Positions 42,268-56,601 of a stretch of 64,000 nt of DNA are shown here, in pieces. The number at the start of each line of letters is the position of its first letter. Position 1 is the first letter of the stretch. The translations under genes were made by a program, and so were the position numbers. Origin of the DNA: Sediminispirochaeta smaragdinae DSM 11293 (GTDB taxonomy: Bacteria; Spirochaetota; Spirochaetia; DSM-16054; Sediminispirochaetaceae); contig NC_014364.1 of the NCBI RefSeq assembly GCF_000143985.1, positions 3,968,001-4,032,000 of the forward strand, written 5' to 3'. A model generated the notes under the pieces. The model saw only the letters and a program-made list of their open reading frames with translations. It did no database searches and was not told where the DNA came from.

Positions 42268-43353
42268 TTAGAAATCCACGCAAACCTTGAAGTAGACGCC
42301 GCCATCAGCAAGAGCAGGAATAGAGTTATAGTTTGCAGCCTTACCATTACCATCAGAGTAGAGGTAACCAAGGGTATAGGCAGCACCACCGATAGCATAG
42401 GTAGCACTTACATCAAGACCAAGAAAATTATCATCAGCATCATCGGTCAGATCAAAAATCGTTCCAACATCGGCAGAAAGAGCATCGGTAAGGGCATAGG
42501 TTGCATCAAGACCAAGCTGGTTAATAGCATCATCATCATTACCATTCATGCTCACGCCAAAACCGGCAGCAGCAACGGTAAAGAACGCACCAGCACCATA
42601 TTCGACTTCCTGGTTGACATCAGCAGCAGTTACACTACCGTCACCATTTCCATCAAGAGATGGAGCAACATCATAATCTAAGTCATATGCAAGAGAGGCA
42701 CTAAGTGCAAGTCCCATGCCATTACCAAGATCCATCTCATACTTATCTTCGGTGTAGAAAATATTATGAGCATAGGTATCATCGGAGGAGACAAAACCAA
42801 CGGTTATACCCAGAGCATCATTCTGGAAAGTACCACCGACAAGAATGCCAGGATTATTGTCGACATCCGCATCAAAGGTTCCCGCAAGAAGCAGGGTAAT
42901 CATGTCGTTAGGCATAATTTCAAGCTGTCCGGCACCTTCGGTAGCAAGACCGATACCACCAAGATCTTCCAGAGACCAGCCGGTGATGTCGAAATCGTCG
43001 CCGATGCTGAAACCGTCATAACCAACGGTGGATACGATACCGATAGGAAGACCAAGCTGGGCGCCCCAGTCGGTCACGATCTCCGCATAACCAAGGTGCA
43101 AATTACCAGCTGCTCCAGCAGTAAGATCATTCGATCCGTCAGCATCCTCAATCTCAGCCTTGAATGTGTTGTAGTCATCCATGGTTACCGCAAAATCAAG
43201 TTCGATTTTATCAAACTTTCCAGTAAAACCAGGTCCCGCATCGGGGTCACCGGCCATGAAACCGTAGTCGAATTCGCCGGTCAGGCTCACTTCGGCAGAT
43301 ACAACAAAAACACATGCCAAAGCCAAGATAAGAACAAGAGCAATTTTTTTCAT
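42268..43353 (-). CDS. Porin-like outer membrane protein with an EF-hand-like loop
   Basis: The ATG at 43353 follows GGAGGAA and gives 361 residues. It has a classic signal peptide (MKKIALVLILALACVFVVSA). The mature part is acidic, beta-rich and ends in F, as expected for a barrel inserted by BamA. A segment near residue 234 reads DGNGDGSVTAAD, an exact EF-hand/dockerin calcium loop (D1, N3, D5, S7, D12), apparently in an extracellular loop. Strong terminator and good ribosome site suggest high expression. It is divergent from the first TetR gene. Confidence 0.82.
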   Translation of the reverse strand: MKKIALVLILALACVFVVSAEVSLTGEFDYGFMAGDPDAGPGFTGKFDKIELDFAVTMDDYNTFKAEIEDADGSNDLTAGAAGNLHLGYAEIVTDWGAQLGLPIGIVSTVGYDGFSIGDDFDITGWSLEDLGGIGLATEGAGQLEIMPNDMITLLLAGTFDADVDNNPGILVGGTFQNDALGITVGFVSSDDTYAHNIFYTEDKYEMDLGNGMGLALSASLAYDLDYDVAPSLDGNGDGSVTAADVNQEVEYGAGAFFTVAAAGFGVSMNGNDDDAINQLGLDATYALTDALSADVGTIFDLTDDADDNFLGLDVSATYAIGGAAYTLGYLYSDGNGKAANYNSIPALADGGVYFKVCVDF

Positions 43354-43418
43354 CCGTTCTTCCTCCATTGTGTTTTAGGGAGCCAAGCATACCGCCCGAC
43401 TAATTCCCTTTCTCAATT

Positions 43419-43576: not shown

Positions 43577-44212
43577 ATGGGCATAAACGAACGAAAGCTT
43601 CGCGACAAGGAACGAAGGGTCGCAGAAATTCTCGAGGCGGCAAAGGGCCTGTTTCTCGACAAGGGCTATCTCCATACCACGATGCTGGACATCGCTGAAC
43701 GGTCGGAGCTGAGCAGACGGACCATCTATCTCTATTTCAGAAGTAAAGAGGAGATAACCTTTGCGGTGATGGTCGGCTCCTTCGGATTGCTTCGCGATAA
43801 GCTGAAGGAAGCGGTAAAGAAGGCATCGACGGCACTGGGTCAGCTCTACCGGATGAAGGAGGCCTATTTCGACTTCTATCGCAACCATTTCGACGACTTT
43901 TACTCTACCCTCTACTTCGATCTCAAGCTCAACACGAAGAATATCACGACGGAAGATGCCAGGACCTGTTTCAATATCATAACCGAAATCGTACAGTTGC
44001 TTTCGGATGTGCTGCAGCGGGGGATGGAAGATAAGACGCTTCGCCCCATAGAAAAGGTCGACCGTACCGCCTTTACCATGGCCACCATTATCATGAGCAC
44101 GATGCAAAAGGCGGCCATTCGCAAGGAACTGCTTGAGTACGCCACGGATTTCAGCGAGGAGGAGATAATCAGCGAGATGTTCGACCTTCTCTTCCTTTCG
44201 GTTAAGCATTAA
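43577..44212 (+). CDS. TetR family regulator of cassette 1
   Basis: The 211-residue protein has the TetR helix-turn-helix (ILEAAKGLFLDKGYLHTTM, IAERSELSRRTIYLYFRSKEE) and a helical ligand-binding domain. It lies 108 bases before the first RND transporter gene. A perfect palindrome overlaps that gene's likely promoter, so it is probably the local repressor. The ligand may be the transported lipophile. The second cassette has its own diverged TetR in the same place. Confidence 0.88.
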   Translation: MGINERKLRDKERRVAEILEAAKGLFLDKGYLHTTMLDIAERSELSRRTIYLYFRSKEEITFAVMVGSFGLLRDKLKEAVKKASTALGQLYRMKEAYFDFYRNHFDDFYSTLYFDLKLNTKNITTEDARTCFNIITEIVQLLSDVLQRGMEDKTLRPIEKVDRTAFTMATIIMSTMQKAAIRKELLEYATDFSEEEIISEMFDLLFLSVKH

Positions 44213-44248
44213 TTCTCTACATATTTATCGCTTTTTCTTCTCCTCTGA

Positions 44249-44300
44249 TTGACGACGGATGATGTGATTGTTATGTTTATTGCACATAGAGTGCAATAAA
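44249..44300 (+). promoter_or_regulatory. Promoter and palindromic operator of RND cassette 1
   Basis: TTGACG (44249-44254) and TATGTT (44272-44277) are 17 bases apart. The palindrome TTTATTGCAC (44276-44285) and GTGCAATAAA (44291-44300), with a 5-base spacer, begins at the end of the -10 box. This layout would block polymerase when TetR is bound. The second cassette has the same layout with a different operator sequence. Confidence 0.6.
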
Positions 44301-44320
44301 TACACGCAAAGGATGTTTAC

Positions 44321-47092
44321 ATGAAAAAGATTGTGCAGCACCCAAAACTGATCATAGGCATCATCCTTGTCGTCACCCTTGTATTGGGGTTTCAGATCCC
44401 CAATATCGTGATCGACAATGATGTGAAGAACTACTTTCCGGAAGATCATCCCTCCAATATTCGTATGGAAGAGTTGGATGATATCTTCAGCGGTCAGGTT
44501 ATGATGGCAATCTCCGTAACCAATGACGAGGGGACGATTTTCACCCCCGAGGTGATCGATGCCGTCTCCAATCTGGTCGAAGCGATCGAACCAATGGCCC
44601 ATGTAGAGGATGTCGATGCGCTGACAAACTCGGACTTTCCAACGGGAACAGTCGACGGCATGGCGGTAGGCCCACTGGTATGGGATGATTTCGACAATAG
44701 TCCAGAGGCCTTTGCCACCCTGAAAGAGCATCTTCTGGAGTGGCCGCAGATGTATCGACGGGCCCTCTTTTCCGATGATTTCACCTCGACGCAGTTGATC
44801 GTTTCCATCGAAGAGGGGCTTCCCTCCGAAGAGATGAGCGTTATCTACAAGAATGTCGAAGATGATATCGCCAAGCAGAAAGAGCTGCACGAGGGCCTGA
44901 CCTTCAGGTTAGCCGGTGATCCGGTCATCTTCGAGCGGGCAAAGGACTATATGTACAGCGACCTGGGTCATCTTGTTCCCGTCGTTATTCTGGTGGTCCT
45001 GCTCTGTCTCTACTTTTCCTTCCGCAGGATACGAGGGACCCTCCTTCCCCTGATCGCCGTCACCATCAGCACCATCTGGACCATCGGCATTATGGCCCTT
45101 TTCGGTGTCAAGTTTACGGTTGTGTCCACCTGTCTGCCGGTTTTGCTCATCGCCGTGGGAAGCGCCTACGGTATCCACATGATGAACCACTATTATGCCG
45201 AGATTGCAGGCAAGGAGGGAAAGGTCTCCTTTGACGAGCACAGGGCTTTGGTTACGGCCTCTTCGGCCCACGTCGCAAAACCCATTCTCCTTGCCGGTTT
45301 TACCACCATCGTCGGCTTTGCCTCGGTCACCACCAGCCCCATCGTACCGCTGAAGCAGTTCGGAATTTTTGCCGCGGTGGGATCGGCCATCGCCCTGCTC
45401 CTCTCCCTTACCTTCATCCCCGCAATCTTGGTAGTAAGCCCTCCCAAGCAGCGGAAGCATGAAGAAAAACAGCACAAGGCAGAGGAAGGAGAAGGAACAT
45501 TGATGAAGATCTACGGTGCGTTAAGCAGGCGCCACTGGAAGATCATCTTCATTTCCCTGGTCGTCGTCGGGGTGTCCCTCTGGGGCCTCTTGCGACTGGA
45601 TATCCAGAGCGCCCTTCTCGATTATTTTCCCAGCCACAGCACCATGCGCGTGGATACCGACTACATCAGCGATAAATTCGGCGGAACGACAACCTTCAGC
45701 GCCGTGGTCCGGGCCGATGAGGGGAAATCCATTATCGATCCCGAACTTCTCAAGAGCATGGACGACCTGAGCCTCCACCTCCAGGAACATCACCCCGAGA
45801 TCGGGAAAATCATCTCCTTTACCGACTTCATCAAACGGATGAATCAGATCATGAATTATCCGCCGGCCACCGTCGAGGCGACAAGCCCTGAGACGGGGAC
45901 GGAATCCGGCCAGGGTTCCGATCAGGGCTTCGGAATGGATAGTTTTTTTGACGACGATACGAGCCTGGCCAACGAACCTGCTGCTACGGCAGAGGCTTCC
46001 GACGACGGTTTCGGCAGCTTCTTCGACGATGCGGAGCCGGGCGGGGAAGCAGAAGCGGCTGCCGCCACGGCGGATACGCACGAGGCAGGCCAGGATCCCA
46101 CGGAGAAATACAACTACGATACCTACAGCACCGAGATGACCTACCGTGATTTTCTCGCTCTGCTTGAGGATGCCATTTCGAAACGGGCCGGCTACACCAT
46201 GAGTGTCGACGAACTGGTGAAGGGCATCGAGAAAGGCTTCAACTATAAGGGCGCAGATTACTATGAGATCCCCTACGATCCGGCAAAGTATCCGGTCGCC
46301 AGCAGGGAGGAGTTGGGAAATCTGGTCAGCCAGTATCTGCTTCTTTACTCAGGATCCCTGGATGATTATGCGAACGACCCCCTTGATCCGGATATTGCCC
46401 GCATGCTGATTCAGCTAAAAACCCATAAAACCAGCGACACCGATGCGGTAATCAAGGATATCAACACCTATGTGGCGAAGCATTTCCCCGAAGGATATCG
46501 CGTGGAATGCACCGGTGTGGCAGAGATGGAAAAGACCCTGACCGACATGGTGATCAGCTCTCAGCTCGTCAGCCTTTTTGCGGCCCTCCTGATCGTCTTT
46601 GTCATTGTCGCTATCTCCTACCGTTCCCTGGCTGCCGGAATCTTCGGTATTATTCCCCTCTCCATGGCCATTCTGGTTAATTTCGGCATCATGGGGATCA
46701 CCGGCATCAGACTGGACATGGTTACCTCGATAATCGCATCCATAGCCATTGGAATCGGCGTCGATTATACCATTCACTTCCTCGACAACTATCACCACGA
46801 ACGGCTGGCCAGTGATGATCTGGAGCTGGTAACCCGAAATACGATACTCCTTTCAGGTCAGGCCATCATCATCAATGCGGTATCGGTCGCCCTCGGCTTT
46901 CTGGTACTTACCCTTTCATCCTTCGTGGTGCTTAGATATATCGGGCTGCTGGTGGCCATCATTATGATTACCTCATCCCTTGCAGCAATGACCATCCTGC
47001 CCGTTCTTCTAAACATCTTTAAACCGGCCTTTATCAGCAGACCGGCGAACATCAAACGACCGGGAGCGGAGACTTCCGGGAAGGAAGAGTAA
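44321..47092 (+). CDS. RND/MMPL-family transporter, cassette 1
   Basis: The 923-residue protein has an N-terminal membrane helix, a periplasmic loop, a block of about five membrane helices, then a repeat of this pattern: twelve helices in all. Motifs include VGSAYGIHMMNHYY in the first half and SIAIGIGVDYTIHFLDNY in the second, typical of MMPL/HpnN-like transporters of lipids and hydrophobic compounds. The second periplasmic domain has an acidic, low-complexity insert (about 525-600) with SFFDDD and SFFDDA. The gene is followed two bases later by a LolA-like gene. The last 45 bases are nearly identical to the cassette 2 transporter, while the rest has diverged. Confidence 0.9.
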   Translation: MKKIVQHPKLIIGIILVVTLVLGFQIPNIVIDNDVKNYFPEDHPSNIRMEELDDIFSGQVMMAISVTNDEGTIFTPEVIDAVSNLVEAIEPMAHVEDVDALTNSDFPTGTVDGMAVGPLVWDDFDNSPEAFATLKEHLLEWPQMYRRALFSDDFTSTQLIVSIEEGLPSEEMSVIYKNVEDDIAKQKELHEGLTFRLAGDPVIFERAKDYMYSDLGHLVPVVILVVLLCLYFSFRRIRGTLLPLIAVTISTIWTIGIMALFGVKFTVVSTCLPVLLIAVGSAYGIHMMNHYYAEIAGKEGKVSFDEHRALVTASSAHVAKPILLAGFTTIVGFASVTTSPIVPLKQFGIFAAVGSAIALLLSLTFIPAILVVSPPKQRKHEEKQHKAEEGEGTLMKIYGALSRRHWKIIFISLVVVGVSLWGLLRLDIQSALLDYFPSHSTMRVDTDYISDKFGGTTTFSAVVRADEGKSIIDPELLKSMDDLSLHLQEHHPEIGKIISFTDFIKRMNQIMNYPPATVEATSPETGTESGQGSDQGFGMDSFFDDDTSLANEPAATAEASDDGFGSFFDDAEPGGEAEAAAATADTHEAGQDPTEKYNYDTYSTEMTYRDFLALLEDAISKRAGYTMSVDELVKGIEKGFNYKGADYYEIPYDPAKYPVASREELGNLVSQYLLLYSGSLDDYANDPLDPDIARMLIQLKTHKTSDTDAVIKDINTYVAKHFPEGYRVECTGVAEMEKTLTDMVISSQLVSLFAALLIVFVIVAISYRSLAAGIFGIIPLSMAILVNFGIMGITGIRLDMVTSIIASIAIGIGVDYTIHFLDNYHHERLASDDLELVTRNTILLSGQAIIINAVSVALGFLVLTLSSFVVLRYIGLLVAIIMITSSLAAMTILPVLLNIFKPAFISRPANIKRPGAETSGKEE

Positions 47093-47093
47093 C

Positions 47094-47870
47094 ATGAAAA
47101 AACGAACCATCATTGCGTTGGCGGCAGCCTTCCTGCTGCCGGCGACAAGCTTCGCCCTTACCGGGACCGAAATCGCTCAGAAAGCCTACGATGTGGAAGA
47201 CGGTACCACCCGACATACCGCCGTTCAGATGGACCTCATCGATAAAGACGGTTCGGTAGATGCACGGCTCATCGAAGAGTGGGGCAAGGACGATGCGAAC
47301 GACCTCACCTCCGTGGTCATGGTCTTCAGAAGCCCGGCCTCCGTCCGCGACACCAGGTTCCTCCAGATCGAAAACAAGGGACGGGACGACGATAAGTGGA
47401 TCTACCTCCCCGCCCTCAAACGGGTCAGGAGGATCGCTTCCAGCGAAGGCGACAAGTCATTCATGGGATCGGATGCCACCTACGACGACATGGACACCAG
47501 AGAGGTCGAACAGGATACCCACGACCTTATCAGGGAAGAGAGCGTCGGCCAGTGGAACTGCTACGTGGTCAAAGACACACCGGTCGATCCATCCGACAGC
47601 CAGTATTCCTACCGCATCTCCTGGATCGACAAGCAATCCTTTGTTCCCGTCAAGATGGAGATGTACGACAAGCAGGGTGAGCTGGTAAAGGTGCTCACCG
47701 TGGAAAAGCTTGAGAAGGTCCAGGGATACTGGACTCCCCTCCAGAACCTCCTGAAGAACGTACAGACCGGTCACTCCACCAGGCTGACGGTCAAGAAGAT
47801 CGTCTTTGACGAGAGTCAGCCCGACGCCCTGTATACCACCAACTTTCTCCAGACCGGACGGGTCCAGTAG
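47094..47870 (+). CDS. LolA-like outer membrane lipoprotein-sorting protein, cassette 1
   Basis: The 258-residue product has a signal peptide (MKKRTIIALAAAFLLPATSF, cleavage near FA-LTG). It then has a LolA-like half-barrel with the segments ARLIEEWGKDD, RDTRFLQIENKGRDDDKWIY, LPALKRVRRI and SFMGSDATYDDMDTRE. This type (PF17131-like) carries lipophilic cargo in the periplasm and typically travels with MMPL/RND genes. It follows the RND gene by two bases and precedes the barrel gene by ten. Its twin at 53099 is almost identical. Confidence 0.88.
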   Translation: MKKRTIIALAAAFLLPATSFALTGTEIAQKAYDVEDGTTRHTAVQMDLIDKDGSVDARLIEEWGKDDANDLTSVVMVFRSPASVRDTRFLQIENKGRDDDKWIYLPALKRVRRIASSEGDKSFMGSDATYDDMDTREVEQDTHDLIREESVGQWNCYVVKDTPVDPSDSQYSYRISWIDKQSFVPVKMEMYDKQGELVKVLTVEKLEKVQGYWTPLQNLLKNVQTGHSTRLTVKKIVFDESQPDALYTTNFLQTGRVQ

Positions 47871-47879
47871 GAGGGAGGT

Positions 47880-49280
47880 ATGAGCAGCTTGAAAAGAACA
47901 GCAACGGTGGCCTTCACGGCCGCCGCCCTCCTGCTGGCGGGGGTAAGCCTTCCGGCAGACGACTTTTCCTTTGACGACTTCGGCAGCTCCGACTTTGGCG
48001 ATGACACGGGGACAGCGACTGCAGGAAACAGCTCTGCCTTGGAAGTGCACGGAGAGCTGGACGGAAGCCTGCGGGCAACCGTGGGGGAGGATGCACTCTC
48101 GGATATCGGTGCTATAAGCAGCGAGGACGACAGTATCGAATACGGCAGCGAAGCAAAACTCAACCTCACCTACACCGGGGACAAGATCGATGCCTTCATC
48201 AACCTTCAGCTTGATCCGGACCGGCTTGACGAGGATATGAGCACCCTGTTCGACGAGGCCTATCTTCGCTACTACGGTTCCGGCTTCGACTTTGAGACCG
48301 GACTGATGAAGGTGGTCTGGGGGAAGGGGGACCAGCTGCATGTTGTGGACCTGCTGAACTCCGATGACTTGACCGATTTCATCAACCCCGACTATATCGA
48401 CCGGAGGATTGCCGTACCCATGGCAAAACTCAATGTGCAGGTGGGGGGCCAGGGGAAGCTTGAGTTCGTCTACATCCCCACCCTCACCCCCAATACCAAC
48501 CCCACCAGCGGGGCATGGGCCACACAGCAGGCCCAGGATCTTGCTGCCGCTGTAACAAGCTATCTGGACACCTTAGCTGGTAGTGATGCAGTCTTTACCA
48601 CCCTGAACAGCTACGAGGATATGCTCTACCCCGATACCGACACCCTCGACTACAGTCAGGCGGCGGTGAGGTGGACCGACAGTTTCGGCGGGATGGATGT
48701 CGGGGCCCTCTACTACTGCGGCTTTCTCAAGGATCCTTCGGTTGATGTCGCAAACCTCGATATCTCCTATGACCGGCTTCATGCCTTCGGTCTTGAGGCA
48801 GGAGGAATCCTTGCGGGCTTCAATCTCAGGAGTGAGGCGGCCTACTACATGACCGAAGACATTGCGGGGGATGATCCTGTGGTGCACAACAACTCGCTGA
48901 ACTATCTGGTGGGCTTCGACCGGGACCTGCCGCTGCACAACATCAACCTGAATATGCAGGCGACAGGCAGTTACATCCTGAACAACGATGAGATTTCAAG
49001 CGGGGATATTGAGTATGACAGTGACGACGATTACTCGAGTAATCTGATTGTCTGCAAGATCTCCGACACCTTCAATCACGAAAAGGTGAGTATAGAGGCG
49101 AAAGGGATCTATGAGATTGAGGATGAGGATTGGATGATAGGGCCGGTGATAACCCTTGCACCCAATGGGGAGTTTGAGTTTTCCGCCGAGGCGAGGTTCT
49201 TTGGCGGGGATGATGACGGAAGGCTCGGACAGTTCGACGAGAGCAGTTACCTTCAACTCAAGGTCAAAGCCATGTTTTAA
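47880..49280 (+). CDS. DUF1302-like outer membrane beta-barrel protein, cassette 1
   Basis: The 466-residue protein has a signal peptide ending at A26. The mature N-terminus is acidic and phenylalanine-rich (DDFSFDDFGSSDFGDD, 27-42). The barrel ends in F. The segment FDEAYLRYYGSGF ... MKVVWGKGDQLHVVD ... NSDDLTDFINP resembles the DUF1302/alginate-export group, where partner genes are MMPL and LolA-like. A loop near residues 220-250 differs strongly from the cassette 2 copy, as does a second near 285. GGAGGGAGG precedes the ATG. Confidence 0.82.
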   Translation: MSSLKRTATVAFTAAALLLAGVSLPADDFSFDDFGSSDFGDDTGTATAGNSSALEVHGELDGSLRATVGEDALSDIGAISSEDDSIEYGSEAKLNLTYTGDKIDAFINLQLDPDRLDEDMSTLFDEAYLRYYGSGFDFETGLMKVVWGKGDQLHVVDLLNSDDLTDFINPDYIDRRIAVPMAKLNVQVGGQGKLEFVYIPTLTPNTNPTSGAWATQQAQDLAAAVTSYLDTLAGSDAVFTTLNSYEDMLYPDTDTLDYSQAAVRWTDSFGGMDVGALYYCGFLKDPSVDVANLDISYDRLHAFGLEAGGILAGFNLRSEAAYYMTEDIAGDDPVVHNNSLNYLVGFDRDLPLHNINLNMQATGSYILNNDEISSGDIEYDSDDDYSSNLIVCKISDTFNHEKVSIEAKGIYEIEDEDWMIGPVITLAPNGEFEFSAEARFFGGDDDGRLGQFDESSYLQLKVKAMF

Positions 49281-49315
49281 GCCTTGCTTCAATTGCAAGG
49301 AAGGAGTGATGCGAT

Positions 49316-49456
49316 ATGAAAAGGGTGTTGCAAACGGCGCTGATCGTCTTGATTACGGCGATATTTCTCAGCAGTTGTCTCAGCCTCAAGCCTTTCACCG
49401 ATGAAGAGATCGACCGTCTAACCGTGGTCGAATCGAATACGACGATTATTACATAA
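49316..49456 (+). CDS. Small 46-residue lipoprotein, cassette 1 only
   Basis: The ATG at 49316 follows AAGGAG at a normal distance. The product reads MKRVLQTALIVLITAIF then LSSCLSLKPF, so C21 is a lipobox cysteine; the mature protein is only 26 residues and ends at TAA (49454-49456). It lies 35 bases after the barrel gene and just before the 115-base element. The matching place in cassette 2 has lost it: the barrel stop runs almost directly into the element. A small accessory of the transport system is inferred. Confidence 0.7.
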   Translation: MKRVLQTALIVLITAIFLSSCLSLKPFTDEEIDRLTVVESNTTIIT

Positions 49457-49465
49457 ATTAACGAC

Positions 49466-49580
49466 GCTGTCGGTTCTCGGCAGGATGAGCCTTCCTCCTA
49501 TCCGGCTGGCACCGGTGGGGATTACCGGGAAGCAGTCCCTGCGGAACGTCAGAACTTTACGGGAACCGACAGCTTTTTTT
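49466..49580 (+). terminator. 115-base structured element with T-run, copy 1
   Basis: GCTGTCGGTTC (49466-49476) pairs with GAACCGACAGC (49563-49573) to close an ~86-base structured interior, and TTTTTTT follows (49574-49580). Inside are small hairpins such as CCGGT/ACCGG and GCAG/CTGC. It could be a terminator, a structured RNA or both. It ends cassette 1. Copy 2 at 55378-55490 differs by one base in the body, and that change keeps a G-U pair. Confidence 0.6.
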
Positions 49581-49666
49581 CCACAAGCCTGTATCGAAAG
49601 AAAAATAATGACAACTTGAGTTATTGATACAAGTCCTATACACTTTTGATGCTCGACGGAGGACCT

Positions 49667-50275
49667 ATGACGCGTGAAGAAAAAATTTGTAGTGCCGCCT
49701 TTTCTCTTTACATCAAACATGGCCCTCAGAGGGTCAGCATGCAGGAAATTGCCGATACGGCAGGTGTCAGTAAAAAAACCCTTTACAACCGATTTGGCAA
49801 TAGAGAGAAATTACTTGATCGTACCATTGAGTGGCATTCTCGTCGTATGGTTGGCTTTTTCGAAAACTTAATGGAAAGCGATGTATCGATTGCGGAAAAA
49901 CTGGTGAAAGCTATAGAGTTTGTATCCAGGGAACTCGACCGGGAAATCGAAGCCCTCCAACAGGAACTGGTGCGGCCCAATCCTTACCTAAAGGATATTC
50001 CCGTCAACTTTATACACAAGAAGATACGATTGATGCTCGAACAGTTGGTTGAGCAGGCAAAAGATGCCGGTCTCTGCCGAACCGATTATTCGACTCGGAT
50101 GATCATCTATATCATCCTTTCTATGATAAAAGGGCTTACAAGCTGGAAAGCCGTGAGTGATGTGTATACCGATAGCAAGTATTTATTCGGAACAACCATG
50201 AAATTTATTTTAGATGCGTTTCTCACGGAAAAAGGGAAAAAAGTTCTCCCCGTCGATACATTTCAAACCCTCTAA
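49667..50275 (+). CDS. TetR family regulator of cassette 2
   Basis: The ATG at 49667 follows CGGAGGA and gives 202 residues. The helix-turn-helix is clear (SMQEIADTAGVSKKTLYNRF). The rest is helical and diverged from the cassette 1 regulator. It lies 122 bases before the second RND gene, with an 11-bp-arm palindrome between. Upstream in-frame ATG/TTG codons at 49646-49649 lack a ribosome site. Confidence 0.87.
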   Translation: MTREEKICSAAFSLYIKHGPQRVSMQEIADTAGVSKKTLYNRFGNREKLLDRTIEWHSRRMVGFFENLMESDVSIAEKLVKAIEFVSRELDREIEALQQELVRPNPYLKDIPVNFIHKKIRLMLEQLVEQAKDAGLCRTDYSTRMIIYIILSMIKGLTSWKAVSDVYTDSKYLFGTTMKFILDAFLTEKGKKVLPVDTFQTL

Positions 50276-50321
50276 GAATCTGAGAAATCCATTATTTCGT
50301 TGTTAATATGAGTGATTTCTC

Positions 50322-50380
50322 TTGTTTTTTGTATTCTTCGTCACTATATTACACTTATAACACATTATGAGTGTAATATA
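50322..50380 (+). promoter_or_regulatory. Promoter and palindromic operator of RND cassette 2
   Basis: TTGTTT (50322-50327) and TATATT (50345-50350) are 17 bases apart. The palindrome TATATTACACT (50345-50355) and AGTGTAATATA (50370-50380), with a 14-base spacer, starts at the -10 box. This matches the layout of cassette 1 but with different bases, as expected for a diverged TetR. Confidence 0.6.
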
Positions 50381-50397
50381 AGCAAGCGGAGGAAAAT

Positions 50398-53097
50398 TTG
50401 AAAAAGCTTTATCGCTATCCGTTAGTAAATATCATCGTCATCGCCTTGGTGACACTTTTCTTCGGACTGCAGATTCCCAAAATCACTTATGATAACGATA
50501 CGATGAATTTTGTTCCCGATGATGATCCGGCTCTCACAGCCTTCGAGGATTTTGAAGATCAGTTTGGCAGTGCCCTGGTCATCGATCTCGTTATTAATAG
50601 TGATGTACATTCTATTATCAGTCCGGAAAGCCTCGCCATTATCCAAAAGCTTAGCGATGAGCTGGAGCTCTTAAAGGGCCAGGAGAAAATCCAATCCATC
50701 ACAAACACCGACTATATACGAGGAAAGGATGGAACCCTTACGGTAGGTCCGGTGTCGGAAAACGAAGATGGAAAGCTCATTCCCGCAGATACCCTGCGAA
50801 AACGATTAAATAGCTGGAAGAGTATGTACGACAAGATGCTCCTCTCCAAGGATGAGCATTCAACACAAATTGGCATCACCATTGATTACAACCTATCGAT
50901 CGAAGAGCGCGAAACCATATACAATGATATCCAAGAGCTCGCAAAAAAGATCTTACCCGATGGATATTCCTATTATCTTGCAGGTCTTCCGGCAACTACT
51001 ATCCAGGTCAGCGAAAATATGCGGCATGACCTTTCGGCTCTGATTCCCCTTGTTTCATTATTCGTTCTCATTATTCTTTTCATCAGCTTCAAAACCATCG
51101 GAGGAGTGGTGCTCCCCTTTCTAAATGTCATCATCAGCACCATCTGGACCATCGGATTAATGAGCCTGACAGGGACTCCTCTGACTATTTTGGGAGCGAC
51201 AATTCCCATCCTCATGGTAGCAGTGGGCAGTGCCTACGGGATACACATCGTCAGTCATTACTATGACGAATTGAGAAATCCCGAAAATTCAGGGATGACC
51301 AACAAAGAAATTGTCTACAAAACAATGGATGCCGTTGGCAGCCCAGTATTTTTAGCAGGCCTGACTACCTTCATAGGCTTTGCTTCCCTGGCGGTCAGTA
51401 CCGTAGTACCGATGAAATTTTTTGGCTTTTTTTCTGCTTTCGGTGTTCTTTCAGCCCTCTTTGTCGCCTTTGTTTTCATTCCCTCGGTATTCTTAATGGC
51501 ACGAGGTACGGGAGAGATCAAAAAAGAGAAACAAGCGAAGCCGGAACGGAACTATGTTTTTTTGAAGATCCTCAGCAACACAGCCACGAAACACACAACC
51601 ATGGTACCGCTTGTCAGCATTCTGCTTGCAGGCCTTTCGATATTCTTTATTCCGAAGGTCGTTGTGGAAAACAATCTCATCGACTTTTTCAAGAAGGATA
51701 CAGAGATCCGGCAAGCCGACAGATTTATCCGTCAGGAATTCGCCGGCACCAGCAGTTTCAACATCACCATCGAGGGGCAAGAAAAGGGAGACTTGAACAA
51801 TCCCGAAATACTCCAGAGTATGGAAAACACTGCCGACTATATTCGGACAAACTATCCGGAAGTCAGTAAGGTTATCTCCTATTCGGAATATATCAAGCGG
51901 ATAAATCAGGTCCTTAACGAGGATCTTCCGGGCAAGATAGCTCTCAAGTCGGAAAGCAATGGCACTTCAGACGGGACCATGGTCCAACAACAAGAGGCTT
52001 CGACCGCCGATAGTACCGGCGATAACTTTTTCGAGGACAGCTTTTTCGGCGATGCTTTCGGTGATACTGCCATTGGCCAGGAGGAAGACCAGGCTGCGGA
52101 AAAGGCGACAAGCCCGATGTCGACGGATGCTGCTCAGAATAGTATGCCGGACAATAAACCGGAGAAAGTCGATATGCTCGAAGCACTATTCGATGCCTAC
52201 CGAACAGACCCCGATCATTTTATCGATGAGCTGGGACGGCTGACAAATTACGACGGTCTTGATTACTATGAGATTCCCACTGACTTGGATAAGTATCATC
52301 TTGCAAATAAGGATGAATTCAAGAATCTTATCAGCCAGTATCTGCTTCTGTACTCCGGCTCCCTCGATGATTGGTCCGATAACGCCCTTGAACCACAGAA
52401 AGCACGGATTTTGGTACAGCTTGGAAAAAGCGGAAGTATTATTGCCTCGCGCATAACAAAAGCAATTGTTCCTGCAATTGAAATGATGCTGCCGGAAGGC
52501 TACACCTTTACGATCAGCGGTTCATCATTGGTCGAGAGTTCTTTGACGAACCTGATTGTTACATCATCTATTGCAAGTATAATCCTCTCAATCATCCTGG
52601 TCTTTATTATTCTTACGATTGTCTATCACTCCGTCCTTACGGGATTAATAGGTATCGTTCCTCTGCTGCTTACGGTTCTGATCAACATGGGGATCATGGG
52701 ACTTACGGGCATCAAGCTCGATATCAGCACTGCGATGGTAGGAAGCATCTCAATCGGAATAGGTATCGACTATACCATTCATTTCCTTTCAAGTTACGCA
52801 ACAAACCTGCGATCTTTATCCTCCAGGGATGAGACAACCGTAAAGGCAATATTTACCACAGGGAAGGCGATCATATTCAATGCCGTATCGGTTGCGGCCG
52901 GATTCTTCGTGCTTACATTTTCCAGATTTACTCCCTTGATATACTTCGGAATCCTGGTCATCATCACCATGACGGTATCTTCGATCAGCTCGCTCATTCT
53001 CCTGCCCCAGCTTCTGAAACATCTCGATGAAAAACATCTTATCCGCTCAACGAACATCAAACGACCGGGAGCCGAGACTTCCGGGAAGGAAGAGTAA
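50398..53097 (+). CDS. RND/MMPL-family transporter, cassette 2
   Basis: The 899-residue protein starts at a TTG with GGAGGAAAA just upstream; no ATG fits better. It has the same twelve-helix RND layout, with VGSAYGIHIVSHYYDE and SISIGIGIDYTIHFLSSY. Its periplasmic insert near 542-560 is acidic with FFEDSFFGDAFGD. It is clearly homologous to the cassette 1 transporter but diverged over its length, except for the last 15 residues (NIKRPGAETSGKEE), which fall in the near-identical repeat. The cargo may differ from that of cassette 1. Confidence 0.9.
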   Translation: MKKLYRYPLVNIIVIALVTLFFGLQIPKITYDNDTMNFVPDDDPALTAFEDFEDQFGSALVIDLVINSDVHSIISPESLAIIQKLSDELELLKGQEKIQSITNTDYIRGKDGTLTVGPVSENEDGKLIPADTLRKRLNSWKSMYDKMLLSKDEHSTQIGITIDYNLSIEERETIYNDIQELAKKILPDGYSYYLAGLPATTIQVSENMRHDLSALIPLVSLFVLIILFISFKTIGGVVLPFLNVIISTIWTIGLMSLTGTPLTILGATIPILMVAVGSAYGIHIVSHYYDELRNPENSGMTNKEIVYKTMDAVGSPVFLAGLTTFIGFASLAVSTVVPMKFFGFFSAFGVLSALFVAFVFIPSVFLMARGTGEIKKEKQAKPERNYVFLKILSNTATKHTTMVPLVSILLAGLSIFFIPKVVVENNLIDFFKKDTEIRQADRFIRQEFAGTSSFNITIEGQEKGDLNNPEILQSMENTADYIRTNYPEVSKVISYSEYIKRINQVLNEDLPGKIALKSESNGTSDGTMVQQQEASTADSTGDNFFEDSFFGDAFGDTAIGQEEDQAAEKATSPMSTDAAQNSMPDNKPEKVDMLEALFDAYRTDPDHFIDELGRLTNYDGLDYYEIPTDLDKYHLANKDEFKNLISQYLLLYSGSLDDWSDNALEPQKARILVQLGKSGSIIASRITKAIVPAIEMMLPEGYTFTISGSSLVESSLTNLIVTSSIASIILSIILVFIILTIVYHSVLTGLIGIVPLLLTVLINMGIMGLTGIKLDISTAMVGSISIGIGIDYTIHFLSSYATNLRSLSSRDETTVKAIFTTGKAIIFNAVSVAAGFFVLTFSRFTPLIYFGILVIITMTVSSISSLILLPQLLKHLDEKHLIRSTNIKRPGAETSGKEE

Positions 53098-53098
53098 C

Positions 53099-53875
53099 AT
53101 GAAAAAACGAACCATTATTGCGTTGGCGGCGGCCCTGCTGCTGCCGGCGACAAGCTTCGCCCTTACCGGGACTGAAATCGCTCAGAAAGCCTACGACGTG
53201 GAAGACGGTACCACCCGACATACCGCCGTTCAAATGGACCTCATCGACAAAGACGGTTCGGTGGACGCACGGCTCATCGAGGAATGGGGCAAAGACGATG
53301 AGAACGACCTCACCTCCGTGGTCATGGTCTTCAGAAGCCCCGCCTCCGTCCGCGATACCAGGTTCCTCCAGATCGAAAACAAGGGCAGGGACGATGATAA
53401 ATGGATCTACCTGCCCGCCCTCAAGCGAGTCAGGAGAATCGCTTCCAGCGAAGGTGACAAGTCATTCATGGGTTCGGATGCCACCTACGACGACATGGAC
53501 ACCAGAGAGGTCGAACAGGATACCCACGACCTTATCAAAGAAGAGAGCGTCGGTCAGTGGGACTGCTATGTACTCAAAGATACCCCGGTCGATCCCTCCG
53601 ACAGCCAGTATTCCTACCGCATCTCCTGGATCGACAAGCAATCCTTTGTTCCGGTCAAGATGGAGATGTACGACAAGCAGGGTGAGCTGGTAAAGGTGCT
53701 CACCGTGGAAAAGCTTGAACAGGTCCAGGGATACTGGACTCCTTTACAGAACCTTCTGAAAAACGTACAGACCGGTCACGCCACCAGGCTGACCATCAAG
53801 AAGATCGTCTTTGACGAAAGTCAGCCCGACGCCCTCTATACCACCAACTTTCTCCAGACCGGACGGGTTCGATAG
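53099..53875 (+). CDS. LolA-like outer membrane lipoprotein-sorting protein, cassette 2
   Basis: The 258-residue product is almost the same as the cassette 1 protein, with nine substitutions scattered along it (for example AAALLLP for AAAFLLP and the C-terminal GRVR for GRVQ). The start at 53099 follows the RND stop by one base and has the same AAGGAAG site; an in-frame start at 53027 lies inside the RND gene and is not credible. It should carry cargo from the second transporter to the barrel. Confidence 0.88.
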   Translation: MKKRTIIALAAALLLPATSFALTGTEIAQKAYDVEDGTTRHTAVQMDLIDKDGSVDARLIEEWGKDDENDLTSVVMVFRSPASVRDTRFLQIENKGRDDDKWIYLPALKRVRRIASSEGDKSFMGSDATYDDMDTREVEQDTHDLIKEESVGQWDCYVLKDTPVDPSDSQYSYRISWIDKQSFVPVKMEMYDKQGELVKVLTVEKLEQVQGYWTPLQNLLKNVQTGHATRLTIKKIVFDESQPDALYTTNFLQTGRVR

Positions 53876-53884
53876 GAGGGAGCT

Positions 53885-55363
53885 ATGAGCAGCTTGAGAA
53901 GAATAACAACGGTGGCCTTCACGGCCGCCGCCCTTCTGCTGGCAGGGGTAAGCCTTTCGGCAGACGACTTTTCCTTTGACGACTTCGGTAGCTCCGACTT
54001 TGGTGATGACACCGGGACAGCGACTGCAGGAAGCAGCTCTGCCATCGAAGTGCACGGGGAGCTGGACGGAAGCCTGAGGGCTACCGTGGGGGAGGATGCA
54101 CTCTCGGATATCGGTGCTATAAGCAGCGAAGAGGACAGCATCGAATACGGCAGTGAAGCAAAACTCAACCTCACCTACACCGGGGATACGATTGATGCCT
54201 TCATCAACCTTCAAATCGATCCGGAGAGGCTTGAAGATGATATGAGCACCCTGTTCGACGAGGCCTACATTCGCTACTACGGTTCCGGCTTCGATTTCGA
54301 GACCGGACTGATGAAGGTGGTCTGGGGTAAAGGAGACCAGCTGCATGTTGTGGACCTACTGAACTCCGATGACTTAACCGATTTCGTCAACCCCGACTAT
54401 ATCGACCGGCGGCTTGCCGTACCCATGGCAAAACTCAATGTGCAGGTAGGGGTTCAGGGAAAGCTTGAGTTCGTCTACATCCCCACCCTCACCCCCAATA
54501 CCAACCCCACCAGCGGGGCATGGGCTACACAGCAGGCGCAGGATCTTGTAGACAAAACAGAAGAATATATAACTTACGTTGCTCTTTCTGCTTATAATGA
54601 AACTTATACTGCGACCAGCTCTGAAGCCGCCGCGACCCTTGCCGAAGCCTCGATACTGGAGAAGTATAGCGACGGAAGCGCCCTCTACCCCGATACCGAC
54701 ACCCTCGACTACAGTCAGGCGGCGGTAAGGTGGACCGACAGTTTCGGCGGAATAGATGTCGGGGCCCTCTACTACTGCGGCTTTCTCAAGGATCCTTCGA
54801 TATCCTATACCGTCGATGGCAGCGGAACGCCTACAGCCATCGATATCTCCTATGACAGGCTTCATGCCTTCGGCCTTGAGGCAGGGGGAATTGTCGGAGG
54901 ATTCAATCTCAGGAGTGAGGCGGCCTACTACATGACCGAAGACATTGCAGGGGATGATCCTGTGGTACACAACAACTCGCTGAACTATCTGGTGGGGTTT
55001 GACCGGGATCTGCCGCTGCACAACATCAACCTGAATATGCAGGCGACAGGAAGTTATATCCTGAACAACGATGAGATTTCAAATGGGGATATTGAGTATG
55101 ACGGTGACGACGATTACTCGAGTAATCTGATTGTCTGTAAGATCTCCGACACCTTCAATCACGAGAAGGTGAGCATCGAGGCGAAGGGGATCTATGAGAT
55201 TGAGGATGAGGATTGGATGATAGGGCCGGAGATAACCCTTGCACCCAATGGGGAGTTTGAGTTTTCCGCCGAGGCGAGGTTCTTTGGCGGGGATGACGAT
55301 GGTCGGCTTGGACAGTTTGACGAGAGTAGTTACCTTCAGTTCAAGGTCAAAGCCATGTTTTAA
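53885..55363 (+). CDS. DUF1302-like outer membrane beta-barrel protein, cassette 2
   Basis: The 492-residue protein matches the cassette 1 barrel over most of its length, including the acidic N-terminal FSFDDFGSSDFGDD. It differs in two loops: after ATQQAQDL it has a longer, unrelated stretch (about residues 220-260), and after CGFLKDPS it carries ISYTVDGSGTPTA where cassette 1 has a short sequence. Loop changes in an otherwise conserved barrel usually sit on the cell surface. GGAGGGAG precedes the ATG. Confidence 0.82.
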   Translation: MSSLRRITTVAFTAAALLLAGVSLSADDFSFDDFGSSDFGDDTGTATAGSSSAIEVHGELDGSLRATVGEDALSDIGAISSEEDSIEYGSEAKLNLTYTGDTIDAFINLQIDPERLEDDMSTLFDEAYIRYYGSGFDFETGLMKVVWGKGDQLHVVDLLNSDDLTDFVNPDYIDRRLAVPMAKLNVQVGVQGKLEFVYIPTLTPNTNPTSGAWATQQAQDLVDKTEEYITYVALSAYNETYTATSSEAAATLAEASILEKYSDGSALYPDTDTLDYSQAAVRWTDSFGGIDVGALYYCGFLKDPSISYTVDGSGTPTAIDISYDRLHAFGLEAGGIVGGFNLRSEAAYYMTEDIAGDDPVVHNNSLNYLVGFDRDLPLHNINLNMQATGSYILNNDEISNGDIEYDGDDDYSSNLIVCKISDTFNHEKVSIEAKGIYEIEDEDWMIGPEITLAPNGEFEFSAEARFFGGDDDGRLGQFDESSYLQFKVKAMF

Positions 55364-55377
55364 GCCTTGCTTTCGAT

Positions 55378-55490
55378 GCTGTCGGTTCTCGGCAGGATGA
55401 GCCTTCCTCCTATCCGGCTGGCACCGGTGGGGATTACCGGGAAGCAGTCCCTGCGGAACGTCAGAACTTTACGGGAATCGACAGCTTTTT
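55378..55490 (+). terminator. 115-base structured element, copy 2
   Basis: GCTGTCGGTTC (55378-55388) pairs with GAATCGACAGC (55475-55485), followed by TTTTT. The C to T change against copy 1 turns a G-C pair into G-U, so the stem is kept. It begins 14 bases after the barrel stop. Part of it (55414-55471) also resembles 55580-55634, the end and terminator of the next, opposite gene. Confidence 0.6.
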
Positions 55491-55568
55491 CTTCCATAAA
55501 AACCTACAATATGACGTCTAACACGATGCGATATCGCTATTTGTGCTGCATGGTTCAGCCTGCCATAT

Positions 55569-55597
55569 AAAAAAACCCGCCGGCTGGCACCGGCGGG
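55569..55597 (-). terminator. Rho-independent terminator of the outer membrane protein at 55624
   Basis: On the minus strand CCCGCCGG pairs with CCGGCGGG around a 6-base loop, followed by TTTTTTT (plus-strand As at 55569-55575). It lies 26 bases past the stop. The rest of 55491-55568 holds nothing I recognise. Confidence 0.88.
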
Positions 55598-55623
55598 ATG
55601 TACAAAGCAGTCTCTGCGGAACG

Positions 55624-56601
55624 TCAGAACTTCATGTAGGCCTTGACTTGGAAAACAGCCGCCTGAAGGGCAGAAGCCTGTTCCCCCCAAAGGGGAATCC
55701 GATAGTTAAACGAAAACTCAAGGGGTACGAGGCTCCTGGTAACAAATACATTTACTCCGGGAGCGACCCGAAGAAGTTTGCTGTCATCATCCTGTCCCTC
55801 TCCATCCAGTTCAGTTTCGGGAGTCATCACATAGGTAACCGGCAGCATAGCACCAAGCTCAATCCCTTCGGCGACGGTAACATCGTAGTGAGGCTCTACT
55901 TCAAGGGTTAGATCATAGCCGTAGTCGATTTCATCAATTTCATCGCCACCAAGCATAACAGAGTAAGCAGAGTTCAAAGCAGCACTAAAGGACTTGTCTG
56001 TATCAACAGGGAAATAGTATTTGTACTCACTGTAGAGGTTGAGATAAAAATCATCGTTTACAACATAGTCACCATAAAAGCGGGCCCCAAGGCCATAGGC
56101 GTTATGGGAAGGAAGAACCTGGTATGATTTTCCTGTCATAAAGTTAGAAACCTCGTCTTCGGCATCATAACCAAAGGCCATGGGGATAATAATACCGCCG
56201 GCAAAAGCGACACGAAACTTTTCACTGTAGACCGGGGCAGCTTGGCCGATAACTTGAACCTTCGCACCGGCAAAAAGTTCATATGCACCCGTATACTCAC
56301 CATCATCATTTGAATCATCAAGCGTATCGTTATTACCGACAAACGTGTATCCCGGGGTCCACTGGAAGGCGGCACTAATAAAATCGGTAATACCATATTC
56401 GGCGGCAATGCCAAGGTTAAAGTAAGACTGCTCATCCCCGTCAACCTTATCGCCATCGCTGTCGAATTCCTGATCACCAAAGGAATACGAGGGTACGAAA
56501 TAGAGCCTCAGAACCCCTTTCGGAAGCATTTTCGCTTTGTCCGCCATCAGCATAGGCGCGAACATCGTCAGGGTGATCATCACAACAAGAAATTTCTTCA
56601 T
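55624..56601 (-). CDS. Outer membrane beta-barrel protein
   Basis: The 325-residue protein has a signal peptide (MKKFLVVMITLTMFAPMLMA). The mature sequence is beta-rich and acidic, with strands such as RLYFVPSYSFGDQEF and EYGITDFISAAFQWTPGY. It ends in MKF, a terminal phenylalanine typical of BamA clients. It may be a transporter or structural barrel; no family is recognised. GAAGGAGA precedes the ATG. A promoter candidate and a strong terminator flank it, so it is a single-gene unit, convergent with cassette 2. Confidence 0.8.
   Translation of the reverse strand: MKKFLVVMITLTMFAPMLMADKAKMLPKGVLRLYFVPSYSFGDQEFDSDGDKVDGDEQSYFNLGIAAEYGITDFISAAFQWTPGYTFVGNNDTLDDSNDDGEYTGAYELFAGAKVQVIGQAAPVYSEKFRVAFAGGIIIPMAFGYDAEDEVSNFMTGKSYQVLPSHNAYGLGARFYGDYVVNDDFYLNLYSEYKYYFPVDTDKSFSAALNSAYSVMLGGDEIDEIDYGYDLTLEVEPHYDVTVAEGIELGAMLPVTYVMTPETELDGEGQDDDSKLLRVAPGVNVFVTRSLVPLEFSFNYRIPLWGEQASALQAAVFQVKAYMKF

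Follow-up and report, generated by a model that had tools for sequence, protein, structure and literature searches.

Tandem TetR–RND–LolA_like–barrel cassettes of Sediminispirochaeta smaragdinae: a candidate export line for a lipophilic compound and a chimeric second cassette

What might two adjacent gene cassettes, each joining an inner-membrane pump, a periplasmic carrier, and an outer-membrane barrel, carry across the envelope of a spirochaete, and how did they come to lie side by side? The window examined here, a 64,000-nucleotide stretch of the complete 4,653,970-base genome of S. smaragdinae DSM 11293, contains eight intact plus-strand genes in the order TetR–RND–LolA_like–barrel, arranged as a tandem pair (cassette 1, 43577–49280; cassette 2, 49667–55363). 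Intact open reading frames (ORFs) and Pfam matches (TetR_N, MMPL, and LolA_like) bear out this four-gene make-up and order, which had been proposed from the sequence of the window. The original prediction extended the pair over 43577-55490; its end is too far downstream, as the last gene stops at 55363 and 55374-55496 is a repeat outside the cassette genes.

43577..44212, + strand: TetR-family regulator 1, 211 aa (TetR_N Pfam E 4.1e-15)
44321..47092, + strand: RND/MMPL pump 1, 923 aa, 12 transmembrane helices (MMPL E 3.5e-49; AF2 pLDDT 79.4; Foldseek)
47094..47870, + strand: LolA_like carrier 1, 258 aa, with signal peptide (PF17131 E 5.5e-69; PDB 9tp6 and 3bk5)
47880..49280, + strand: outer-membrane beta-barrel 1, 466 aa (89% amino acid identity to the modelled barrel 2)
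49667..50275, + strand: TetR-family regulator 2 (TetR_N E 2.3e-13; 25% amino acid identity to TetR1)
50398..53097, + strand: RND/MMPL pump 2, 899 aa (MMPL E 1.5e-47; in the tree, not the sister of pump 1)
53099..53875, + strand: LolA_like carrier 2 (PF17131 E 3.4e-69; 96.5% amino acid identity to carrier 1)
53885..55363, + strand: outer-membrane beta-barrel 2, 492 aa (AF2 model, 18 strands; porin-like Foldseek matches)

For the second regulator, the ATG at 49667 is a likelier start than the TTG at 49646. In both cassettes, 1 base separates the RND stop from the LolA start and 9 bases separate the LolA stop from the barrel start, spacing which implies that pump, carrier, and barrel share one transcript.

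Structure prediction, a check put forward with the original prediction, gave pump and barrel models that fold as expected, and the carrier has solved homologues. The pump model contains the twelve helices that had been anticipated for an RND/MMPL transporter; with two periplasmic domains and an MMPL domain matched twice per pump by Pfam, it falls within the HAE3/MMPL type of the RND superfamily. Foldseek matches of the model were MmpL5, MmpL4, NPC1/NCR1, NPC1L1, HpnN, and Patched, and no AcrB-type pump was among its best 50 matches. The best-scoring NCBIfam model, TIGR00921 (HAE3), gave 284 and 247 bits, below its cut-off of 351.9; TIGR03480 (HpnN; 127 and 97 bits, cut-off 751.85) and NF045600 (BstA; 45 and 43 bits, cut-off 1400) also fell short. 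The pumps are therefore like HpnN and MmpL3/4/5 in fold (Foldseek), but unlike them in that NCBIfam scores lie far below the cut-offs. BstABC reportedly shares with the cassettes an RND-type inner-membrane transporter and a periplasmic lipid carrier, and BstB and BstC have folds other than those found here. The BstABC system of Methylococcus serves sterol transport (PMC10942540). HpnN has been described as operating without periplasmic or outer-membrane partners of its own (PMC6394551). RND pumps of archaea that are paired with an extracellular protein were considered and set aside as a parallel, since the partner there is a different one, an Ig-like fibre (PMC11349517).

The carriers, correctly recognised beforehand as LolA-like periplasmic proteins, score 232 bits against PF17131, for which the gathering score is 30, and have four solved homologues, including PDB 9tp6 (E 2.4e-48) and 3bk5 (E 1.5e-31). 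The proposal of a DUF1302-like barrel survives in part. The AF2 model of barrel 2 (pLDDT 80.8, pTM 0.77) is an 18-stranded barrel whose turns are short on one side and whose loops are long on the opposite side, with phenylalanine as the last residue, and its Foldseek matches are generic porins and AlgE. However, neither barrel of the window has a Pfam match, DUF1302 (PF06980) included; DUF1302 is matched by 1 of 50 barrel-family members and, above cut-off, by barrel paralogues in similar operons elsewhere in the genome (E 1.5e-8 and 7e-12). The two barrels of the window differ from each other mainly in two loops:

54521..54715, + strand: barrel 2 loop L4, aa 213-277, variable between copies (model and alignment)
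54782..54859, + strand: barrel 2 loop L5, aa 300-325, variable between copies (model and alignment)

The copies differ at 25 of 65 aligned residues in L4 and L5 compared with 23 of 401 elsewhere (p 1e-11, an overstated value, as the comparison was devised after viewing the alignment, although the loop positions themselves come from the structure model), and these two loops also hold all 26 inserted residues. In the usual porin topology such loops point outward, and by analogy L4 and L5 are predicted to be extracellular.

The component assignments agree with the earlier idea of a substrate route from the inner to the outer membrane, and we give a slightly better than even chance to the explanation that each cassette is a TetR-controlled, proton-driven export line, made up of pump, carrier, and barrel, for a lipophilic compound. 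Judging from position, the TetR protein would repress the pump-carrier-barrel operon at a palindrome ahead of the pump gene and release it upon binding a ligand. By fold and precedent, the MmpL/NPC1-like RND pump would draw the compound from the inner membrane and load the LolA-like carrier, which would traverse the periplasm and unload at the 18-stranded barrel; the barrel, in turn, would release the compound outside or into the outer leaflet. The likeness of the pump fold to the lipid-type RND proteins MmpL4/5, NPC1/NCR1, NPC1L1, HpnN, and Patched counts for lipophilic export; the lipid cargo named in the original prediction would follow solely from pump fold and precedent.

The nearest studied relative and functional precedent is AmeABCD of Castellaniella defragrans, the deletion of which lowers monoterpene tolerance, and which likewise unites an HAE3-type RND pump, a DUF1302 outer-membrane protein, and a DUF1329/LolA-superfamily periplasmic protein in one cassette (PMC6394551). 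The combination of RND pump, LolA-superfamily protein, and outer-membrane barrel in a single cassette is present here as well. AmeABCD differs in having a fourth protein, AmeC (COG4447), whereas no extra gene lies between pump and barrel in either cassette here; the present cassettes differ in turn by a PF17131 carrier, putative TetR control, a barrel family without a Pfam match, and the pump and barrel tags described below. It had been stated that no studied version was known in spirochaetes. A studied relative does exist, but it is proteobacterial (PMC6394551), and the gene set is common in Spirochaetota; for an HAE3–LolA_like–barrel system described in spirochaetes, literature searches yielded only AmeABCD and Borrelia BBJ23-29 as relevant. 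The AmeABCD mutant phenotype, intolerance, also bears on the opposite direction of transport, in which the barrel would admit a hydrophobic nutrient, the carrier would pass it inward, and the RND protein would work in the NPC1-like inward sense. Although the barrel is porin-like with large loops, its best structural matches are general porins, and the pump fold is NPC1/NPC1L1-like, the characterised bacterial HAE3/MmpL pumps export, and with the AmeABCD phenotype (PMC6394551) set beside this we regard import as very improbable.

If the four-gene cassette is a functional unit, how far does it recur? The search for its gene order that had been suggested found pump, carrier, and barrel in this order in 48 of 63 named genome loci (a count that includes locus L162), which is far from chance. 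A barrel profile run against 149 whole genomes gave 22 strong matches (E < 1e-22), 20 of which adjoin a LolA_like gene, so that the genes are not routinely found apart, the outcome that had been named as adverse to the prediction. The two exceptions are L242, where the barrel gene is beside a pump gene with an unrelated 262-aa ORF between them, and L241, where it stands alone. An iterated barrel profile that joined RND- and ABC-type barrels was discarded as drift; the seed-only profile matches 50 RND-linked and 3 ABC-linked barrels. Outside Spirochaetota, the cassette is present in Orenia metallireducens (Bacillota). The S. smaragdinae genome holds six LolA_like genes, two in the window and four elsewhere, of which two accompany RND pumps and two accompany ABC transporters. 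Head-to-head cassette pairs were seen in Treponema (L171, L176, L183, and L178); at L178, ABC-type and RND-type cassettes are back to back.

Among 104 LolA_like genes of Spirochaetota (about 100 loci), an RND pump adjoins 53, an FtsX/ABC transporter of LolCDE/MacB type adjoins 45, and 6 have neither; none of the 104 has both pump types in one same-strand neighbourhood. The carrier tree requires 1 change of pump-type label, compared with a mean of 32.8 when labels are shuffled, and the branch that parts RND-linked from ABC-linked carriers has a support of 84. This clean split provides strong evidence that carrier and transporter work together, and two gene fusions point the same way. In-frame RND-LolA_like fusions occur at L098:4489-7584 and L240:6367-9954, in different families and independently; the L240 fusion has TetR and barrel genes alongside, and both fusions retain a hydrophobic segment at the position of the former carrier signal peptide. 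For either fusion, a sequencing slip is a small residual possibility. L162 was also considered as a pump-carrier fusion and rejected, its long ORF being an out-of-frame extension.

Parallel ABC/FtsX-LolA_like operons with an outer-membrane-type protein were observed at L031, L032, and 43 more loci, and apparently constitute a sister system powered by ATP, with barrels of another family. They raise the possibility that the cassettes of the window deliver lipoproteins or membrane lipids: the RND pump would replace LolCDE and load the LolA-type carrier with lipoproteins or structural lipids destined to remain in the outer membrane, and the barrel would aid insertion or surface display. Such delivery would suit the LolA_like fold of the carrier and the fact that 45 of 104 loci pair its superfamily with ABC transporters of LolCDE/MacB type, and it has been proposed for Borrelia BBJ23-29, with an ABC transporter (PMC13078400). 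In LolCDE-LolA and BBJ23-29, as here, an inner-membrane transporter loads a LolA-fold carrier for the outer membrane, but they use an ABC transporter and ATP rather than an RND pump, and BBJ25 is of Omp85 type (PMC13078400). Neither operon of the window includes a LolCDE-type ABC transporter; the RND pump stands in its place. A dedicated TetR regulator and the presence of several paralogous cassettes in one genome point instead to small-molecule export that is inducible, the carriers divide by pump type, and AmeABCD guards against monoterpenes (PMC6394551). On balance we consider Lol-like delivery unlikely, if worth keeping in mind. Export of a lipophilic compound, by comparison, would define a widespread spirochaetal module driven by the proton gradient, parallel to the ATP-driven LolCDE-LolA route.

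The comparison extends to a reduced genome, G041 (locus L112; 1,139,633 bases), which has the size of a Treponema pallidum genome and in which an 888-aa pump of the same clade lies directly before a 258-aa carrier. This arrangement resembles the RND-LolA_like pair TP0790/TP0789 of T. pallidum, 888 aa being a reported length of TP0790 (PMC3373638). Pump and carrier are kept in G041, and no barrel of the same family was found there, a point against the proposed export line. A published model treats TP0790 as an AcrB that operates with the MacA-like TP0965 (PMC8407342), and TP0789 is an abundant LolA homologue (PMC10600179). Gene neighbourhood and tree suggest that TP0790 works with TP0789, not with a MacA/TolC channel.

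Returning to the window, the tandem arrangement with separate regulators stands as first described, but the two cassettes are not equal copies. Cassette 2 is a modular chimera: its carrier and barrel genes are copies of those in cassette 1, and joined to them are another regulator and pump, a pair that is either foreign or old. DNA identity between the cassettes is ∼93% for LolA and ∼92% for the barrel in the cassette alignment, compared with 67% for RND and 66% for TetR in gappy alignments; at the amino acid level the carriers are 96.5% identical, the pumps 38%, and the regulators 25%. Synonymous divergence (dS) is 0.30 for both LolA and barrel and is saturated for the pumps. High identity starts sharply inside the last ∼15 RND codons (47046/53051) and continues through LolA and barrel to nine bases beyond the barrel stop. 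In trees, the two carriers are sisters and so are the two barrels (support 100 each), and pump 1, carrier 1, and barrel 1 all group with Marispirochaeta. Constraining the two pumps to be sisters lowers the log-likelihood by 154 units, and that topology is rejected (p-AU 8.6e-6). Sister carriers and barrels, nonsister pumps, and an identity boundary at the end of the pump gene establish the chimera, and the nonsister pumps and 25% regulator identity rule out a plain tandem duplication of the whole cassette. Pump and regulator are exchangeable while carrier and barrel stay, and the outer half may have been reused in cassette 2 for a second inducer or substrate.

In the sister species (genome G151), the carrier segment is 98.1% identical in DNA to copy 1, and the end of the barrel gene is 98.0% identical to copy 1 and is followed by the flank that follows cassette 2 here. 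Copies 1 and 2 within S. smaragdinae are 93.5% identical; with 6.5% divergence between the copies against 1.9% to G151, the copies are older than the species split, and a recent duplication after that split is not supported. TetR2 and RND2 were not found in the G151 assembly, which breaks inside its barrel gene (end of L224, and L229). With copies older than the split, cassette 2 would either have been lost in G151 or have been brought into the present genome. The number of barrel genes in G151 is uncertain, as the gap lies within one. Upstream of cassette 1, the minus-strand gene at 42268-43368 encodes a 366-aa outer-membrane-type protein with an EF-hand-like DGNGDGSVTAADVN loop; it is unusually variable, with 74-83% identity to G151 between flanks at 97-99%.

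Exchange of the regulator raises the question of whether the two operons carry different control sites. Each has a palindrome just upstream of its pump gene:

44276..44300, no strand: putative operator 1, perfect 10-bp arms TTTATTGCAC-N5-GTGCAATAAA, just upstream of RND1
50345..50380, no strand: putative operator 2, 16-bp arms 94% complementary, just upstream of RND2

Equally good palindromes arose in 2 of 300 shuffles for operator 1 (25 bases) and in 0 of 300 for operator 2 (36 bases). The two are unlike in sequence, both stop ∼20 bases short of the pump start codon, and operator 1 is unchanged in G151; no comparable palindrome was found in the regions upstream of the two TetR genes. Two regulators, two putative operators, and two pumps that share one type of outer half point to induction of each cassette on its own. 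As a special case of the export explanation, the cassettes would be two detoxification pumps that expel toxic hydrophobic chemicals, each upon a different inducer, through a common outer half. TetR regulators accompanied by unlike palindromes, a pump swapped while carrier and barrel are conserved, and the reduced monoterpene tolerance of the AmeABCD deletion (PMC6394551) speak for this reading; however, a non-systematic look recognised no xenobiotic-metabolism gene beside the cassettes, and the barrel loop differences are equally explicable by exposure to phage or proteins. This narrower version of lipophilic export seems to us quite unlikely.

How would a periplasmic carrier find both membrane partners? 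Pump and barrel share disordered segments with acidic-phenylalanine repeats:

45842..46135, + strand: pump 1 disordered insertion in the second periplasmic loop (pLDDT < 50 at aa 517-605)
45926-45958, + strand: GFGMDSFFDDD repeat in the pump 1 insertion (sequence)
46001-46030, + strand: DDGFGSFFDD repeat in the pump 1 insertion (sequence)
47958..48005, + strand: barrel 1 disordered N-terminal tag DDFSFDDFGSSDFGDD (barrel model and sequence)
52024..52065, + strand: tag NFFEDSFFGDAFGD in the pump 2 insertion (sequence)
53963..54010, + strand: barrel 2 N-terminal tag DDFSFDDFGSSDFGDD, identical to that of barrel 1 (sequence)

The pump insertion is ∼90 residues long, and the mature barrel begins, in the model, with a disordered stretch. 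Elsewhere the wording of the repeat changes in pump and barrel together: SFFEEE and SFFEE, respectively, at L062; DSFFDDED and DSFFDDSD at L081; LPPLGFE (twice) and PPPLGFD at L087; SFGDESFSSFGDE and EFGSFGDSF at L166; and DGWDSGFGS and DDWDGGWDDS at L188. Among 45 cluster representatives, a repeat-bearing barrel accompanies 19 of 21 pumps with the insertion and 5 of 24 without it (p 3e-6), and dipeptide similarity around F/W is 0.555 between an insertion and its own barrel tail compared with 0.343 to the tails of other cassettes (p 5e-5); the motif and these tests were devised after viewing the sequences, and the clusters are not fully independent. Controls were flat, whether the insertion was compared with the barrel outside its tail (p 0.88) or the tail with the pump outside its insertion (p 0.47). 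At least 4 repeat hits per 40 aa were present in 45 of 120 pumps and 27 of 169 barrels, compared with 19 of 1129 other ORFs. In the head-to-head pairs L171 and L176, one cassette has repeats in both pump and barrel and the other has neither insertion nor repeat, a within-genome contrast that excludes genome composition as the sole cause. The fused pumps of L098 and L240 have no disordered insertion, and in G041 the tag is reduced to a remnant, TDDFGVFKTF. The insertion is missing from roughly half of the cluster representatives, which mostly have no tag either, so the tag is not essential to such systems.

The co-occurring, covarying repeats suggest a common docking tag on pump and barrel. Most simply, both tags would bind the same partner, the carrier, and draw it to its loading and unloading stations. 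Tentatively, and at somewhat less than even confidence, we propose a ferry with two baits in place of a fixed tripartite channel or bridge: a fast-evolving, cassette-specific disordered tag, the same on pump and barrel, would dock the shared LolA-like carrier first to the one and afterwards to the other. This offers a concrete hypothesis for how a periplasmic carrier finds both membrane partners. The copper channel PcoB, whose disordered N terminus is needed for the stability of its periplasmic operon partner PcoA (PMC12509749), is a precedent for a barrel tail acting on a periplasmic partner. Carriers of tag-bearing systems have a mean net charge of -2.2, compared with +3.0 in tag-less systems, and a slightly acidic carrier speaks against the capture of acidic tags by simple electrostatics. 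Tag-bearing and tag-less systems also differ at certain carrier residues (R88, K101, K160, R174, F251, and R256), but these differences are confounded by ancestry and the residues were kept as candidates only. The repeats could instead simply follow from composition, or they could serve in binding to one another, to metal ions, or to the Bam machinery, a possibility to which we likewise assign a little under an even chance: acidic low-complexity segments evolve fast and clustering leaves some shared ancestry, but the same-genome contrast at L171 and L176, the flat rest-of-protein controls, and the concentration of dense repeats in pumps and barrels weigh against it.

Small elements lie around the barrel genes:

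49316..49456, + strand: small lipoprotein-like ORF, 46 aa, lipobox LSSC, beginning MKRVLQTALIVLITAIFLSSCLSL (sequence)
49462..49579, no strand: post-barrel repeat, copy 1 (98% identical to 55374-55496)
55374..55496, no strand: post-barrel repeat, copy 2 (cassette alignment)

The 46-aa ORF sits after barrel 1 and is preceded by a ribosome-binding site; it is absent after barrel 2 and at the matching junction in the sister species. The inter-cassette repeat was rejected as a structured RNA (no Rfam match, a folding z-score of just -1.7, and presence at this locus only). A third local copy of the repeat was noted at 55580-55632, and the three copies are probably scars of the rearrangement that created the tandem. 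In sequence, the repeats resemble the convergent OMP gene at 55624-56601 at its 3′ end and terminator.
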